NCBI GenBank assembly: GCA_902770045.1
Contig: CACXRO010000015.1
Coordinates: 1 to 45,753, forward strand
Reading direction: 5' to 3'
From: an uncultured bacterium
GTDB lineage: Bacteria > Verrucomicrobiota > Kiritimatiellia > RFP12 > UBA1067
Length of the DNA: 45,753 nucleotides
Below, in pieces: positions 21,818 through 30,475 of this stretch. The number at the start of each line of letters is the position of its first letter. The first letter of the stretch is position 1. The notes under the pieces are model-generated. The model worked only from the letters and a program-made list of their open reading frames with translations, ran no database searches and was not told the origin of the DNA. Position numbers and translations under genes: made by a program.

Positions 21818-22291
21818 CTACGCGATGTAGGGCTGGCCGCAGTGGGAGCAGACGGCGCCGGCGTGGACCCAGGCGCCGCAGTTGGGGCAGAGGCGCTCCA
21901 GCACCTCGCCGCAGACGGCGCAGAAGCGGCCGCCGACCGGATCCGCCGCGGCGCGGTCGGGCGAGTAGAGGGCGCGGCCGGCAACCTGGTAGGCGCGGTT
22001 GCTGGGGCACTGCGGGTTGGGACAGAAGCCGGAGCCGGGGGCGTAGTTGGGGGCGGCGGGCGCAGGCGCGGGGGAGCCGGAGGCAGGCGCGGCGGCGGTG
22101 AGGGAAATGCCGAGACGCTTGGCCAGCTTTTCCACCACTTCTGTGCTCAACTTGGTGGGGCGGCCCTGCTCGAACATGGAAAGCGCAGACTGCTTGCAGC
22201 CGACTTCGGCGGCAAGGACTTGCTGCGAGAGGCCCGCCTGGCGGCGGGCATCACGGAGCTGGAAACAGATCTCTGGACTAAGGGCCTTCAC
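21818..22291 (-). CDS. XRE-type HTH regulator with C-terminal zinc ribbons
   Basis: About 157 aa from a GTG start at 22291 (VKALSPEICFQLRDARR). The frame stays open to a TTG at 22372, but that part is low-complexity repeat DNA, so the start is uncertain. Residues about 10-65 are an XRE/Cro helix-turn-helix (RRQAGLSQQVLAAEVGCKQSALSMFEQG). A Pro/Ala linker is followed by Cys pairs CPNPQC, CAVC, CPNC and CSHC, which look like paired zinc ribbons. It probably regulates the SDR/dehydratase genes directly downstream, or itself. A phased array of AGTTGATAA sites (22338-22392) lies right before it and may be its operator. The effector is unknown. Confidence 0.8.
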   Translation of the reverse strand: MKALSPEICFQLRDARRQAGLSQQVLAAEVGCKQSALSMFEQGRPTKLSTEVVEKLAKRLGISLTAAAPASGSPAPAPAAPNYAPGSGFCPNPQCPSNRAYQVAGRALYSPDRAAADPVGGRFCAVCGEVLERLCPNCGAWVHAGAVCSHCGQPYIA

Positions 22292-22337
22292 TGGTTGTGT
22301 ATTATGGACTTTATTTTTTATAAACGCAAGGGGGCAG

Positions 22338-22392
22338 TTATCAACATAGTTGGTGACATAGTTGATAAACAAGTTGATAAGTTAGTTGATAA
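22338..22392. promoter_or_regulatory. 12-bp phased array of TTATCAAC sites
   Basis: TTATCAACA at 22338-22346, then AGTTGGTGA (22348, degenerate) and AGTTGATAA at 22360, 22372 and 22384, each exactly 12 bp after the last. The sites resemble the DnaA-box-like TTATCAACA seen before dnaA (27441) and mnmG (30462). They could be DnaA boxes or operators of the adjacent HTH gene. Confidence 0.6.
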
Positions 22393-22640
22393 TTGGTGAT
22401 TCGTGGTTCGTGGTTCGTGATTCGTGGGTTTGGTTTTGTCGCAAAGGACGCAATGGAGATTGCGGCCGATTCCGATTGTCGTCGCCTCCCGCGCAAGCGC
22501 GGGCGACAATCGGCAATCGTCCGCGGTTTTGGATATTTTGGACAGGATTTACAGGATGGGGGGATTGGGGGCAGCAGCCAGCAACCAGCAGCCAGCAACC
22601 AGCAACCAACAATCAGCAACCAACAATCAGCGGTCAGTAA
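22393..22640. repeat. spacer made of four repeat families
   Basis: 22395-22430: GTGATTCGTGGTTC repeats. 22436-22558: a 123-bp element (hairpin CCGATTGTCG...CGACAATCGG at 22472-22513 with an inner CCCGCGC/GCGCGGG stem, then GGACAGGATTTACAGGAT). It is almost identical to 28914-29036 inside mnmG. 22572-22640: CCAGCAACCAGCAGCCAGC repeats. No gene is seen in this spacer. Confidence 0.8.
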
Positions 22641-24632: not shown

Positions 24633-25727
24633 TCAGCTTGCGCGCAGCGGCATCAGCACGTAGAGGAACGGCACCGAGCACTTGACGACGGCGGGGGAGT
24701 GTCCGTTGTTGAGGTTGATGGTGACGATGTCGTCGTCGATCGCCTTCAGCGGATCCATGAGGTAGGCCGGGTTGAACATGATCTCAATCTTCTCGCCGGC
24801 GTACTTGATCGGCACTTCGTCCTTCGCCTCGCCGATCTCGGTGGCGGCGGAGGTGACGACGAGGCGGCCGGACTCGAAGATGAGCTTGGTGGAGTGGGCC
24901 TCGTCGATGGTCATGACGCTGGCGCGGTCGAGCGCGCTGAGGAGCAGCTGGCGGTCGACGCTGATGTGCTCGGCGGTGTCGTGGGGGATGACCTGGCGGT
25001 AGTTGGGATAGGTCTCGTCCATCAGCTTCGAGTAGAGGTGGAGCGAGCCGAGGTCGAAGGCGATCTGGGACTTCTTGACGGTAATCTTGATCTCGCCTTC
25101 GCCGGCGAGCGAGCGCTGAAGTTCGTTGACTGCCTTGGAGGGGAGGACGATGTCCTTCTCGCCGTCCTTGGGGAACTCGAGTTCGCTCTCGACCATGGCG
25201 AGGCGGCGGCCGTCGGTGGCGACGAGGGTGAGCTTTTCGTCCTTGAAGCTCATCAGCACGCCCTTGAGGGTGCGGCGGGTGTCGTCCTGGCTGGCGGCGT
25301 AGGCTACCTTGCGGAGCATTTCGCGGAGAGTCGCCTGCTCGATGGTGTAGGAGTAGGAGCTGTCCTCCTCGGGGAGGCGGGGGAAGTCCTTAGCCGGCAT
25401 GCCGACGAGGGTGTACTTGGCGCTGCCGGCCTTGATGACCGCCCTTTCGTTGAAGTCGACTTCGACCGAGACCTCCCCTTCCGCCACCTTGGAGATGGAG
25501 TTGAAGAGCAGGCGGACGGGAAGAGTGGTCTCGCCCTTCTCCTCGACGGTGCAGGGGCAGACGCACTTGACGGAGATGTCGAGGTCGGTGGTGGTCATCC
25601 TGAGCTCCTCGCCGTCCGCCTCGATGAGGACGTTCTGGAGGATGGGGAGGGAACCCTTTCCGGCCACGATGTTCTGGACTCCCTTGAGTCCTTCGATGAA
25701 CTTGGATCGGATGATCTTGAACTTCAT
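24633..25727 (-). CDS. dnaN: DNA polymerase III beta subunit (sliding clamp)
   Basis: A 364-aa sliding clamp that encircles DNA and tethers the replicative polymerase. The length matches the family (about 365) and three repeated clamp domains can be followed: MKFKIIRSKFIEGLKGVQNIV; a middle domain with GVLMSFKDEKLTLVATDGRRLAMVE; and a C-terminal domain with VPIKYAGEKIEIMFNPAYLMDPLKAI and the end YVLMPLRAS, which corresponds to the usual MPMR(L) tail. AAAGGAGA precedes the ATG. It lies downstream of dnaA, the classic dnaA-dnaN order, separated by 220 bp. Confidence 0.96.
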   Translation of the reverse strand: MKFKIIRSKFIEGLKGVQNIVAGKGSLPILQNVLIEADGEELRMTTTDLDISVKCVCPCTVEEKGETTLPVRLLFNSISKVAEGEVSVEVDFNERAVIKAGSAKYTLVGMPAKDFPRLPEEDSSYSYTIEQATLREMLRKVAYAASQDDTRRTLKGVLMSFKDEKLTLVATDGRRLAMVESELEFPKDGEKDIVLPSKAVNELQRSLAGEGEIKITVKKSQIAFDLGSLHLYSKLMDETYPNYRQVIPHDTAEHISVDRQLLLSALDRASVMTIDEAHSTKLIFESGRLVVTSAATEIGEAKDEVPIKYAGEKIEIMFNPAYLMDPLKAIDDDIVTINLNNGHSPAVVKCSVPFLYVLMPLRAS

Positions 25728-25947: not shown

Positions 25948-27375
25948 TCACTCCATCGAATCAGAAAGTTTATAGCCGAGGACGGAGAGAATCTCCTCCA
26001 GGTCGGCCCTCAGGTTGGGCTCGTTGGAGAGGCGCTGCTGGATGGTCTTGACGCCGCTGATGACGGTAGCGTGGCTCTTCTTGAAGCCGTCGGCGATTTC
26101 CTTGAGTCCCTTGGCGGTGTACTTGCGCGAGATGTACATCGCAAGCTGCCGCGGAGTTACCATCGACTGGGTGCGCTCATGTGAGAGGATGTCGTCCATC
26201 GAGGAGTTGAAGTGGCGGGCGCATTCCTGCTGGATTTCCTTTATGGTAAGCTTCTTGAGGGTGTTCTCCTTCTTGATGAAGGGATCGAGGATTCGGGAGA
26301 GGATGGTCTTGTCGAGCACCAGCTTGGGATTGGCGGAGACGAATACCTCTACCGTGGCGAGGGCGCCTTCAAGGGCGCGGACGTGGCTGTTGATGTTGTC
26401 GGCGATGAACTCGAGGGCGAGGTCGGGGATGCGGACCGAGGTGGACTCGGCCTTCTTCTTGAGAATGGCGAGACGGGTTTCGTACTTGGGAGACTCGATT
26501 TCCTGGAGCATGCCGCCCTCGAAGCGGGAGATGAGCCGGCTTTCGATGGTGGAGGGAAGGTTCTTCGGAGCGACGTCGGAGGTAAGCACGATCTGCTTGT
26601 ACTTGTCGCGCAAGGCGTTGAAGTTGTTGAAGAACTCGTCCTGGGTCTCCTTGCCGCGCTGGAAGAACTGGACGTCGTCGATCAGGAGGACGTCGAGCGA
26701 GCGGTACTTGTCGCGGAACTTGGAGATCTTGCCCTCCTGCATGTGGTTGACGTATTCGTTCATGTACTCCTCGGCGGTGAGGTAGCAGATGGAGAGCGAG
26801 GGGTTTTTCTTCTTGAGCTCGTTGCCGATCGCCTGCATGAGGTGGGTCTTGCCGAGGCCGGTGCCGCCGTGGATGAAGAGCGGGTTGTTGCCGGGGCGGC
26901 CGGGGCTGGCGACGACGGCCTTGGCGGCGGCGATGGCGAAGCTGTTGGAAGGTCCGCTCACGAACTCGTCGAACGTGAACTCCTCTTTGAGCGGCAGCGT
27001 GGAGACGAAGGATGAAGGCGCGCGCGAGGTCGATGACTGGTCGGCATAGCCATAGCCTTGCGGATAGGCTGGCTTTTCGTCCACAGGTTTGAGGGAGCTG
27101 TCGTAGCGGACTTCGATCTCGATGCCGGGATCGGCGCCGGCGAGCAGGAAGCTGCCCTTGATCTTGCTCGCGTATTCGCTGCGGATGAGGTCGGCGGCGA
27201 ATGAGTTGGTGGTGATGATGGTGAACTTGCCGTTCTCGAAGGAGACGGTGGCGACCATACTGAAATAGCGTTCTGCCTGGCTCTTCTCGTCCTCGCCATT
27301 GAGAGTGCCAAGGTACATCGACTTGGCCTTCTCCCAGAGCGCGGCAGGTTGGTTTTTAGCTTCTTCGTTGTTCAT
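25948..27375 (-). CDS. dnaA: chromosomal replication initiator DnaA
   Basis: A 475-aa AAA+ initiator that binds DnaA boxes and melts oriC. Domain I about 1-85, variable linker to about 125, AAA+ core with Walker A GGTGLGKT (170-177), Walker B DVLLIDDVQF and arginine-finger region ESRLISRFEGG. The C-terminal DNA-binding domain IV contains TPRQLAMYISRKYT. The recognition-helix signature reads FKKSHATVISG instead of the usual GGRDHTTVxHA: one residue is missing, Asp is Ser and the first Thr is Ala. The start MNNEEAKNQPAALWEKAK is chosen because a TATTAT -10 lies 8 nt before it, which excludes the ATG at 27393. Confidence 0.95.
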   Translation of the reverse strand: MNNEEAKNQPAALWEKAKSMYLGTLNGEDEKSQAERYFSMVATVSFENGKFTIITTNSFAADLIRSEYASKIKGSFLLAGADPGIEIEVRYDSSLKPVDEKPAYPQGYGYADQSSTSRAPSSFVSTLPLKEEFTFDEFVSGPSNSFAIAAAKAVVASPGRPGNNPLFIHGGTGLGKTHLMQAIGNELKKKNPSLSICYLTAEEYMNEYVNHMQEGKISKFRDKYRSLDVLLIDDVQFFQRGKETQDEFFNNFNALRDKYKQIVLTSDVAPKNLPSTIESRLISRFEGGMLQEIESPKYETRLAILKKKAESTSVRIPDLALEFIADNINSHVRALEGALATVEVFVSANPKLVLDKTILSRILDPFIKKENTLKKLTIKEIQQECARHFNSSMDDILSHERTQSMVTPRQLAMYISRKYTAKGLKEIADGFKKSHATVISGVKTIQQRLSNEPNLRADLEEILSVLGYKLSDSME

Positions 27376-27383
27376 GGGGCGGT

Positions 27384-27389
27384 ATAATA
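27384..27389 (-). promoter_or_regulatory. -10 element directly before dnaA
   Basis: Minus strand TATTAT inside TGGTATTATACC, 8 nt before the ATG, predicting an almost leaderless dnaA transcript. The -35 region is poor, so activation or an extended -10 is likely. Confidence 0.55.
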
Positions 27390-27440
27390 CCATAATTTTG
27401 GGGAATTGTGGGAAACGAGGAATCTACTCGTGTTAACTAC

Positions 27441-27463
27441 TTATCAACATAGTGTGTAGATAA
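27441..27463. promoter_or_regulatory. DnaA-box-like pair upstream of dnaA
   Basis: TTATCAACA at 27441-27449 and, on the other strand, TTATCTACA at 27455-27463, each one base from TTATCCACA. They lie about 50-75 nt upstream of the dnaA -10 and could serve autoregulation. Confidence 0.6.
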
Positions 27464-27856: not shown

Positions 27857-30289
27857 TTAGTGATGGCCGCGGTGGATGATGACGGCGAGGATGGCGACGT
27901 CGGAGGGGTTTACGCCGGGGATGCGAGCAGCCTGGGCAAGGGTTTCGGGGCGGTGGGCCTTCAGTTTCTGGCGGCTTTCAAAGCGCAAGGCGGGAATTTG
28001 GTCATAGTCGAGCCAGGCGGGAATTGTCTTTTTCTCATCAATTTTCGCCTTTTCTGCCGCTTTTTCTTCCTGATCGATGTAGGGAGCGTAAAGACGCATA
28101 ATCTTAATTTCGTTTTCTATGCGGGCGGTGGCGGTGGGGGTGGTCTCATGCGAAGTTCGCGAAGTTGGGGTTGGGGTTTTCGCGGCTACTTGGATATAGG
28201 CGAATTCGGCGGCGAAGGCATCGAGTTCAGTGGCGGAGCGGATGCCGACGCGGCGGGCGGCGGCGAGGAGTCGGTAGATGGCGTTGTCCTGGCGCAGGAT
28301 CAGGCGACGCTCGGCGCGGGAGGTGAACATGCGGTAGGGTTCGTCGGTGCCCTTGGTGACAAGGTCGTCGATCATGACGCCGATGTAGGCATCCTGGCGG
28401 CTGAGGACGAGCGGCGGCTCCCCTTTTGCGCGGAACGCGGCGTTGATGCCGGCGATGATGCCCTGGGCGGCGGCTTCCTCGTAGCCGGTGGTGCCGTTGA
28501 TCTGGCCGGCGAAGAAGAGTCCGGGGTGGTCCTTTGCCTCGAGGCTATGGTTAAGCGAGCGGGAGTCGATGGCGTCGTACTCGATGGCATAGGCGTAGGC
28601 GAGGAATTCGGCGTGGGAGAGTCCGGGAATCGAGTGAACCATCCGTTCCTGCACGTCGGGCGGCAGGCTGCAGCTGAGTCCATTGGGGTAGATGATGGTG
28701 CCGGCGGCGTCCTCGGGCTCGAGCATGACATGGTGTGACTCGGCGTTGGCGAAGCGGACGATCTTGTCCTCGATCGAGGGGCAGTAGCGGACGCCGGTGC
28801 CCACGATGGCACCGCCGTAGAGGGCGGAATTGTTGAGGTTTTCGCGGATAATCTGGTGGGTTTCGGCTGTGGTGTGGGTTTGGTAGCAGGGAAGCTCGGG
28901 GAGAGGATGATTTGGTCGCAAAGGACGCAAAGGAGATTGCGGCCGATTCCGATTGTCGTCGCCTCCCGCGCAAGCGCGGGCGACAATCGGCAATCGTCCG
29001 CGGTTTGAGATGTTTTGGACAGGATTGACAGGATTTGGGGGCTGGGGGGTGGAATTATCACACAGAGGCACAGAGGCGCAGAGAGTTGGGGGTTGGGACG
29101 GGGTGGATTGGACAGGATTGACAGGATTGGGGGGCTGGGGGGTTGAATTATCACACGGAGGCACAGAGACGCAGAGGTTTTGTTTTGGGGTTTTAGCCGC
29201 ATAGGACGCATAGGACGAAAAGGTTTTGGGGTCTGGGGCGGAGCCCCAGTTCTTTGCGTTCTTTGCGGCTAAAACTAGAGGTTCGGGGGCGGGTGGCGGG
29301 CATTGAAGCCCGCCGGCAGGATTCGGAGCGGCTGGGGATTGTTCCACGTGGAACAAGGGGCGGGGGTGGTCGCCGGGCTGGCGGATGCAGGCGGTGAAGT
29401 CGCAGGAGGAGGCCTTGAGCCGGGGCGGAGTACCGGTTTTGAGGCGGAAAAGGCGGAATCCAAGGCGCTCCAGCGCGGTGGAGAGCTGGTTTACCGCGGG
29501 GCGGCAGTCGCCGGCGCTTTCTGAGCCCTTCTTGCCGATCCAGATGCGCCCACGGAGCGCGGTACCGGCGGTAATGACGATGGCCTGGGCGCGGAAAAGA
29601 CCATGGCGAGCGGTAACGAGGGTTAGTGTATGATGATTTTTAGCCGCAAAGGACGCAAAGGACGCAGAGGTTTTGGGGTCTGGGGCGGAGCCCCAGTTCC
29701 TTGCGTTCTCTGCGCTCTTTGCGGCCAAACAAGATTGTTCCACGTGGAACAAGGGTGAGGAAAGTGTTTGGGTGTTTGGGTGGTTAGCCGCAAAGGACGC
29801 AAAGGACGCAGAGGTTTTGGGGTCTGGGGCGGAGCCCCAGCTCTTTGCGTTCTCTGCGTTCTTTGCGGCTAAAAAATAATTGGGTTCATGGATCGTTGAT
29901 GGTGAGAGGTCGATGACATCATCTTCGATGAGGGTGAGGTGGGGTTGGGCGGCGAGGACTGCCTGCATTCGCTGGGAGTAGGCGGCCTTGTCGCATTGGC
30001 AGCGGGTGGCCCAGACGGCGGGGCCGCGGCTCAGGTTGAGGGTCTTCGCCTGGAGCGCGGTAAGGTCGGCATTGCGGCCCATTTCGCCGCCGAGGGCGTC
30101 CAGCTCGCATACCAGGTGGCTTTTGGCGAGGCCGCCGATCGAGGGATTGCAGGGCATGCGCGCCAGGGCATCGAGTCGCGAAGTAATGAGCGCGGTTTCG
30201 ACGCCCATCCGGGCGGCGGCGAGCGCCGCCTCGCAGCCGGCGTGGCCGCCACCGACCACGATGACGGCAAACTCTGGGGAAGGTTTCAT
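27857..30289 (-). CDS. mnmG: tRNA uridine 5-carboxymethylaminomethyl modification enzyme MnmG (GidA), with in-frame repeat insertions
   Basis: An FAD enzyme that with MnmE modifies U34 of several tRNAs. It has 810 residues; the family has about 620-640. FAD motif GGGHAG at 13-18 and catalytic Cys at PCNPSIGG (C47) are normal. The second catalytic Cys, LPCYQTHT, is at residue 468 instead of near 277. The extra residues are two blocks. Residues about 135-217 carry two LAAK...[13 protein letters not shown] copies flanking FHVEQ. Residues about 310-461 carry FHVEQ, one more such copy, two 31-aa direct repeats with [11 protein letters not shown], and a hairpin element. The rest ([35 protein letters not shown]) is intact, so the gene is probably functional. 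The start at 30289 is chosen because a -10 lies 8 nt upstream, inside the earlier reading frame. Confidence 0.92.
28914..29036. repeat. 123-bp hairpin element inside mnmG
   Basis: Nearly identical to the intergenic copy at 22436-22558, including the CGATTGTCG/CGACAATCG stem with inner CCCGCGC/GCGCGGG. Here it is read as coding sequence (segment [20 protein letters not shown]) without a stop. Confidence 0.85.
29017..29176. repeat. 93-bp direct repeat inside mnmG
   Basis: GGACAGGATTGACAGGAT ... ATTATCACAC-GAGGCACAGAG occurs at 29017-29083 and 29110-29176. The period is 93 bp, exactly 31 codons, giving two [16 protein letters not shown] peptides. A frame-preserving duplication. Confidence 0.8.
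29193..29272. repeat. palindromic repeat in mnmG, 80-bp copy
   Basis: Starts TTAGCCGC and ends GCGGCTAA, with a GGGTCTGGGGCGGAGCCCC centre. It is the same element as 29640-29728 and 29784-29872 minus one 9-bp unit. It is followed by a GGCGGGC/GCCCGCC hairpin near 29300. Confidence 0.8.
29340..29355. promoter_or_regulatory. parS-like site 1 (ParB binding)
   Basis: TGTTCCACGTGGAACA, a perfect 16-bp palindrome (18 bp with flanking T/A), matches the bacterial parS consensus NGTTNCACGTGNAACN, which loads ParB for chromosome segregation. It lies inside mnmG, read as FHVEQ, about 0.95 kb from the origin candidate. parA/parB are not in the window. Confidence 0.88.
29640..29728. repeat. 89-bp palindromic repeat in mnmG, copy B
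   Basis: Imperfect inverted repeat: TTAGCCGCAAAG at the left, CTTTGCGGCCAA at the right, with GACGCAAAGGACGCAG paired against CTTGCGTTCTCTGCG and a GGGGCGGAGCCCC tip. Confidence 0.85.
29736..29751. promoter_or_regulatory. parS-like site 2 (ParB binding)
   Basis: Second perfect TGTTCCACGTGGAACA, 396 bp from the first, lying between two 89-bp palindromes in mnmG. CACGTG cores elsewhere in the window (for example 7130-7136) lack the flanking GTTC/GAAC. Confidence 0.88.
29784..29872. repeat. 89-bp palindromic repeat in mnmG, copy A
   Basis: TTAGCCGCAAAG ... CTTTGCGGCTAA with perfect 12-bp ends and a GGGGCGGAGCCCC tip. Same orientation and length as copy B. Confidence 0.85.
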
Positions 30290-30297
30290 CGGTGCGT

Positions 30298-30326
30298 AGT
30301 ATAACAAATTATCAACCATTTGTGAA
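30298..30326 (-). promoter_or_regulatory. mnmG promoter, leaderless type
   Basis: Minus strand -35 TTCACA (30321-30326), 17-bp spacer, -10 TATACT (30298-30303), 8 nt before the ATG at 30289. A TTATCAACC box (30309-30317) sits in the spacer, so DnaA could repress mnmG. Confidence 0.6.
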
Positions 30327-30475
30327 GGGTGAAATGGTAAGTGTTATGCGAAGAGAAAAATAAAGGAAAATTACAAATTGTTTGTATTTTTGCAAATTGA
30401 ACAGTTATTTAAAATCTGTCAAGAGGGAAAAGAGAAGAAAATGTAGACAATTATCTAACAGTTATCAACAAAGAA
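30304..30475. other. candidate replication origin (oriC)
   Basis: An AT-rich spacer at the point where gene orientation flips from all minus to almost all plus. DnaA-box-like sites are TTATCAACC (30309), TTATCTAAC (30451) and TTATCAACA (30462). The stretch 30355-30415 is especially AT-rich and could be the unwinding element. It sits beside mnmG, with dnaA and dnaN within 6 kb and two parS sites within 1 kb. Inference; GC-skew and marker-frequency data would decide. Confidence 0.6.

Follow-up and report, generated by a model that had tools for sequence, protein, structure and literature searches.

The DnaA box is often regarded as nearly universal, with a fixed C at its sixth position, and to our knowledge almost all studied bacteria have C there. 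The published consensus of both Escherichia coli and Bacillus subtilis is TTATnCACA, with C fixed at position 6 (hereafter C6), and a review table of high-affinity 9-mer boxes has C6 in every species listed. The canonical recognition-helix residues of DnaA are R399, P423, D433, H434, T435, and H439 (PMC7561715), of which residues 432-435 lie in the stretch that contacts bases in E. coli (PMC5043019), and the T435M and R399A proteins show defective box binding (PMC5742627). One paper describes D433 as highly conserved in every bacterial class and as contacting base 7, not base 6 (PMC8235120). Residues 435, 438, and 439 in helix 5 have been proposed to explain the box preference of Helicobacter pylori, and 435 and 438-439 the epsilonproteobacterial preference for T at position 5 and the protection of the G opposite C6 (PMC5043019), from which we infer that residue 435 plausibly lies near base pair 6. 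For Mollicutes, a box TT(A/T)TC(C/A)ACA has been given (Cordova 2002, as quoted in PMC3322544).

Here, we analyzed the dnaA region of an uncultured, probably ruminal bacterium of the Kiritimatiellia (phylum Verrucomicrobiota). The window is the whole 45,753-nucleotide contig CACXRO010000015.1 of assembly GCA_902770045.1, and its dnaA block comprises the following features:

25948..27393, minus strand: dnaA, 481 amino acids, a bona fide DnaA with an altered recognition helix
25951..26250, minus strand: DNA-binding domain IV of DnaA (last 100 residues), placed by PF08299 (residues 384-451) and by alignment with two close relatives
26053..26085, minus strand: turn of the helix-turn-helix (HTH) and first residues of the recognition helix, FKKSHATVISG (residues 437-447), from the translation and alignment to 8btg
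24633..25727, minus strand: dnaN, beta clamp, TIGR00663 at 295.9 bits
23372..24628, minus strand: RlmL-like methyltransferase, from an NF008748 match below cut-off and synteny

The dnaA product matches TIGR00362 over its full length at 433.2 bits, above the curated cut-off of 343.9, and also PF00308 (Bac_DnaA, 197.6 bits against a cut-off of 23) and PF08299 (Bac_DnaA_C, 72.9 against 31.5). It is the only DnaA match found by profile search of the genome, and dnaN lies directly downstream, giving a single-copy gene in dnaA-dnaN order. A preliminary description of this DNA had reported that the recognition helix departs from consensus. The departure is real, but the alignment behind it was shifted by one, because the F it used is the conserved F preceding GGRD and one turn residue has been lost: the usual F-GGRDHTTVLHA reads F-KK-SHATVISG here, and phmmer aligns the B. 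subtilis sequence of 8btg, F-GGRDHTTVIHA, in the same way, with a turn one residue shorter in our protein. In E. coli numbering, all four of the conserved residues D433, T435, P423, and H439 are replaced (by Ser, Ala, Lys in GLKEI, and Ser in VIS, respectively); H434 is kept, and the R399 equivalent is probably kept (HERTQS). Within the family, the helix mostly starts K[T/S/K]HAT, with R-N-HTT in genus g14, the usual form being [KR]DH[TG]T. An AlphaFold model of domain IV had a mean pLDDT of 47 and was left out of the analysis.

The box-like sites of the window are listed below:

22338..22346, plus strand: TTATCAACA, edge of an origin-like array, from word search
22360..22368, minus strand: TTATCAACT, origin-like array with 12-bp spacing, from word search
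22372..22380, minus strand: TTATCAACT, origin-like array, from word search
22384..22392, minus strand: TTATCAACT, origin-like array, from word search
27441..27449, plus strand: TTATCAACA, box ahead of the ORF at the dnaA promoter, with the same inverted pair in relatives G045 and G048
27455..27463, minus strand: TTATCTACA, inverted partner at the dnaA promoter, conserved in genera g1 and g13
30309..30317, plus strand: TTATCAACC, near-match at the mnmG start, from word search
30462..30470, plus strand: TTATCAACA, single box upstream of mnmG, with an equivalent about -2.7 kb of dnaA in G045 and G048

In total, TTATCAACA and TTATCAACT each occur three times in the window and TTATCTACA once. Searching throughout the window for TTATCCACA gave no occurrence, nor is there any TTATnCACA at the dnaA promoter or in the array, where the boxes have A at position 6 (A6) in place of the canonical C6. 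TTATCCAC is absent from this contig and present elsewhere in the genome. Across the 2.27-Mb assembly, 13 copies of TTATCAACW were counted, against 10 of a reversed control word, and 6 of the 13 fall within 8.1 kb of this contig; the probability of at least six at the genome rate is 1.4e-11. The earlier observation that the local boxes (TTATCAACA or TTATCAACT at 22338-22392, 27441, and 30462, with no TTATCCACA) are changed at position 6 and clustered is borne out by these searches.

To place the window among its relatives, we extracted the surroundings of dnaA (at most 20 kb each) from 40 further family members, which with the window makes 41 loci. TTATnAACA occurs 201 times in these regions against 7.9 expected, and TTATnCACA 22 times against 8.1 expected, which are enrichments of 25.5-fold for A6 and 2.7-fold for C6. 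An unbiased 9-mer enrichment put TTATCAACA first, in 36 of the 41 loci where 2.8 were expected. Base composition is ruled out as the cause of A6, which lies 25-fold above a dinucleotide model in G+C-rich genomes. The count of A6 against C6 boxes that had been proposed as a check comes out clearly for A6, and confirms that the box change is family-wide and extends beyond this window.

The array of changed boxes and its neighbor are as follows:

22278..22400, no strand: candidate oriC, an A6 box array in AT-rich DNA (60-68%), conserved in 16 family genomes
21818..22372, minus strand: HTH_3 and zinc-ribbon protein whose promoter holds the array, from Pfam HTH_3 and synteny; true start probably near 22290

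Located 3.5 kb downstream of dnaA, the candidate oriC separates the dnaA-dnaN-rlmL-like block from the HTH/zinc-ribbon gene. Of its four boxes, which fall within 55 bp (22338-22392), three are direct, spaced 12 bp apart, and the fourth points the other way. The candidate combines the box array and AT-rich DNA near dnaA by which an oriC is recognized. In the 16 family genomes that share it, the array is found before the same HTH/zinc-ribbon gene, at +4.0 to +5.0 kb relative to the start of the dnaA ORF, and in relatives of genera g13 and g14, synteny makes the RlmL-like gene the last common gene before it. Base 6 over the 81 array sites of these 16 genomes is A in 73, G in 6, T in 2, and C in none. 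In other genera of the family, A6 boxes lie between dnaA and dnaN. Where a GC-skew minimum falls in the interior of the locus (15 family loci), the median distance from that minimum to an A6 box is 275 bp, compared with 1835 bp expected (p 6e-4). The window's own GC skew, on a 45.7-kb contig, shows no minimum near the array, so that its composition does not mark the origin and the family evidence does: since equivalent clusters in relatives coincide with the GC-skew minimum, the 22338-22392 array is a good candidate for oriC. Along the plus strand, the skew of the window stays positive through the first 40 kb, on both sides of dnaA, with a single dip at 18-19 kb, and drops to about zero or below only after 36-41 kb; in many relatives, by contrast, the sign switches close to dnaA.

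Because the array occupies the promoter of the HTH_3/zinc-ribbon gene in 16 genomes, the sites might instead be operators of the adjacent protein rather than DnaA boxes. We consider this very improbable, as the same word recurs at dnaA promoters and, in genera that have no array, between dnaA and dnaN, where the skew minimum lies, and the corresponding promoter regions of genomes with D433 and G435 in the helix (DHG genomes) carry a textbook-like TTATTCACA. The gene itself is a conserved neighbor of the array in the 16 family genomes, possibly encoding an origin-linked regulator.

On the other side of dnaA, mnmG (27857-30319) contains two parS sites:

29340..29355, no strand: perfect parS TGTTCCACGTGGAACA inside mnmG, from word search
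29736..29751, no strand: second perfect parS inside mnmG, from word search

These are the only perfect copies in the assembly and lie about 7 kb from the array, which argues that the array region is origin-proximal. Within mnmG, parS encodes the peptide FHVEQ. Other family loci with parS and enough flank have one to five perfect copies, also inside mnmG, and parS stays in this gene even where mnmG lies 8-10 kb away on the other side of dnaA; loci of genus g13 have no perfect parS. The mnmG product is 820 amino acids long, and its Pfam GIDA match is broken into three. In-frame insertions within 28930-29840 include a 30-residue peptide in three copies and a 40-residue peptide. The latter is matched almost exactly by an intergenic repeat at 22430-22560 (in the region 22430-22640), and judged by this match, the insertion is a dispersed repeat placed within a conserved gene.

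We consider it fairly probable that the DnaA of this family binds the shifted box TTATnAACA in place of TTATnCACA, because both the dnaA promoter and the conserved array are strongly enriched in A6 boxes and not in C6 boxes, and the start of the recognition helix is changed. The altered domain IV would then read A6 boxes; at the array, acting as oriC, head-to-tail DnaA on the 12-bp-spaced boxes would open the flanking AT-rich DNA, and the inverted pair at 27441-27463 would autoregulate dnaA.

The comparison was extended to the phylum with 195 genomes surveyed and 100 further dnaA regions taken. In the DHG genomes, TTATTCACA ranks first in 9-mer enrichment, and regional enrichment is 5.8-fold for C6 and 2.2-fold for A6; another clade lacking D433 shows 3.7-fold for A6 and 0.6-fold for C6. 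TTATTAACA is among the top enriched 9-mers in family f28 and, alongside tRNA-like sequences, in the remaining members of the window's class, whose helix is [KR]NHAT. At the dnaA promoter, genomes with D/G at residues 433/435 have 41 C6 and 7 A6 boxes, N/T genomes 11 C6 and 5 A6, N/A genomes 12 C6 and 56 A6, T/A genomes 1 C6 and 56 A6, and K/A and S/A genomes together no C6 and 22 A6. DHG genomes, which are of the Verrucomicrobia type, use C6, and TTATnAACA goes with helices in which the His is preceded by Asn, Thr, Ser, or Lys and mostly followed by Ala. By family, the helix/box split is 10:2 versus 2:21 (12 versus 23 families; Fisher p 2e-5, shared descent ignored), and among genomes lacking D433, promoter C6 is found in 15 of 47 with N433 versus 1 of 58 with T/S/K/E433 (p 1e-5, shared descent ignored). 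Comparing domain IV across the phylum, as the preliminary description had suggested, shows helix change and A6 co-occurring across much of it, and at the level of sequence the correlation is real.

Parabacteroides, with helix KKDHATV, has A6 words near dnaA and none at its promoter. L105, an order-level relative of family f2 with helix RNHATVLY, carries TTATCGACA, with G6, twice upstream of dnaA. The near-complete 0.9-Mb genomes G092 and G113 of family f35 gave no Bac_DnaA_C match and are possibly symbionts without canonical DnaA.

How closely protein and site have changed together is less clear-cut. On a DnaA tree built with the HTH left out, D433 changes about three times, A435 about eight times, and absence of C6 about 16 times, and none of the pairwise sign tests of helix against box is significant. 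D433 as sole determinant is ruled out by family f21, which has D433 and A435 yet two TTATTAACA boxes (A6) at the promoter. T435 is ruled out in the same role by genus g14 (N433 and T435, NHTT), with TTATGCACA (C6) at the dnaA promoter and the A6 words TTATAAACA and TTATCAACA in the array, and by L069 and L072, which have T435 with A6 at the promoter. Deletion in the turn is ruled out as the cause by families f34 and f36, which have a full-length turn and still A6. These genomes do not support the exact proposal that Asp-His-Thr reads the changed base. Near-identical NHAT helices in families f8, f10, f11, and f13 pair with C6, A6, or one of each, so that relatives with the same helix and the usual box, named beforehand as evidence against a coupled change, do exist in a weak form. 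Genome-wide counts of tandem box pairs were informative near dnaA and too noisy in AT-rich genomes. With about three independent changes of D433 and a counterexample to every single-residue rule, the coupled change of protein and site is only partly supported: helix and box shifted in the same lineages, but the sign tests do not reach significance.

Few independent changes and non-significant tests are compatible with phylogenetic coincidence, in which helix and box would have diverged in the same ancient lineages without one causing the other, and TTATCAACA would be bound almost equally well by an ordinary DHTT DnaA; the Mollicutes consensus, as quoted in PMC3322544, does tolerate C or A at position 6. 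The graded relation inside the clades lacking D433 (N433 versus T/S/K433) and the fixed C6 of E. coli, B. subtilis, and the review table make this unlikely in our view. The main rival to a coupled change is loosened specificity: the helix would have lost contacts, leaving position 6 unread and any of the four bases tolerated, and A would be common by drift or easier melting with no new specific contact. Consistent with this, NHAT genomes of the window's class often pair an A6 with a C6 box at a spacing of 11 bp, T6 (TTATCTACA) and G6 also occur in f1 promoters, and g14 has both C6 and A6. Against it, the family arrays have A6 at 73 of 81 sites and C6 at none in genomes of about 47-62% G+C, which favors C, and C6 is almost absent from the promoters of T/S/K433 genomes. 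We give loosened specificity a substantial chance, somewhat short of even.

For the family, a coupling link between helix and shifted box is plausible, and the two have changed in the same lineages, probably via a permissive stage. With Asn433 and Ala435, both C6 and A6 would probably have worked, and loss of Asp433 with Ala in place of Thr or Gly at 435 may have made A6 acceptable or preferred. Whether the DnaA box was re-matched in this way within one phylum, with loss of D433 and T/G435 moving base 6 from C to A by way of an Asn-Ala stage of dual specificity, we can suggest only tentatively, and lean against it. If true, it would be a natural series in which an essential initiator-origin pair was recoded without replication failure. 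The graded helix and box states among DnaA orthologs of this phylum make it testable which residue reads base 6 and how an essential initiator can change in step with its many sites. Origin predictors tuned to TTATCCACA would miss A6 origins.

The observation is more general than the preliminary description had it, and a changed box has precedents in Mollicutes (C or A at position 6) and Thermotoga; a search of a paper library on TTATCAACA with DnaA found no article about this phylum. The Mollicutes box, as quoted, likewise tolerates A at position 6, but comes from an unrelated AT-rich lineage, keeps C in the consensus, and is comparable by box alone. Thermotoga maritima DnaA (2z4r) shares the one-residue-short turn and Ser at 433 (FNRSHPVVV) and has a non-standard box, ACCTACCAC, which is far more divergent, and its residue 435 is Pro. 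In epsilonproteobacteria (H. pylori and A. butzleri; PMC5043019), a species-specific box shift has also been ascribed to the start of helix 5, but there it affects position 5 (T), with C6, D433, and H434 kept and mostly Ser at 435. Compared with the canonical system of E. coli and B. subtilis, the locus described here retains the DnaA architecture, the TTAT and ACA ends of the box, and the placement of boxes both at the dnaA promoter and as an array close to dnaA-dnaN; it differs in an HTH one residue shorter, in Ser for D433 and Ala for T435, and in A at position 6 of the box.
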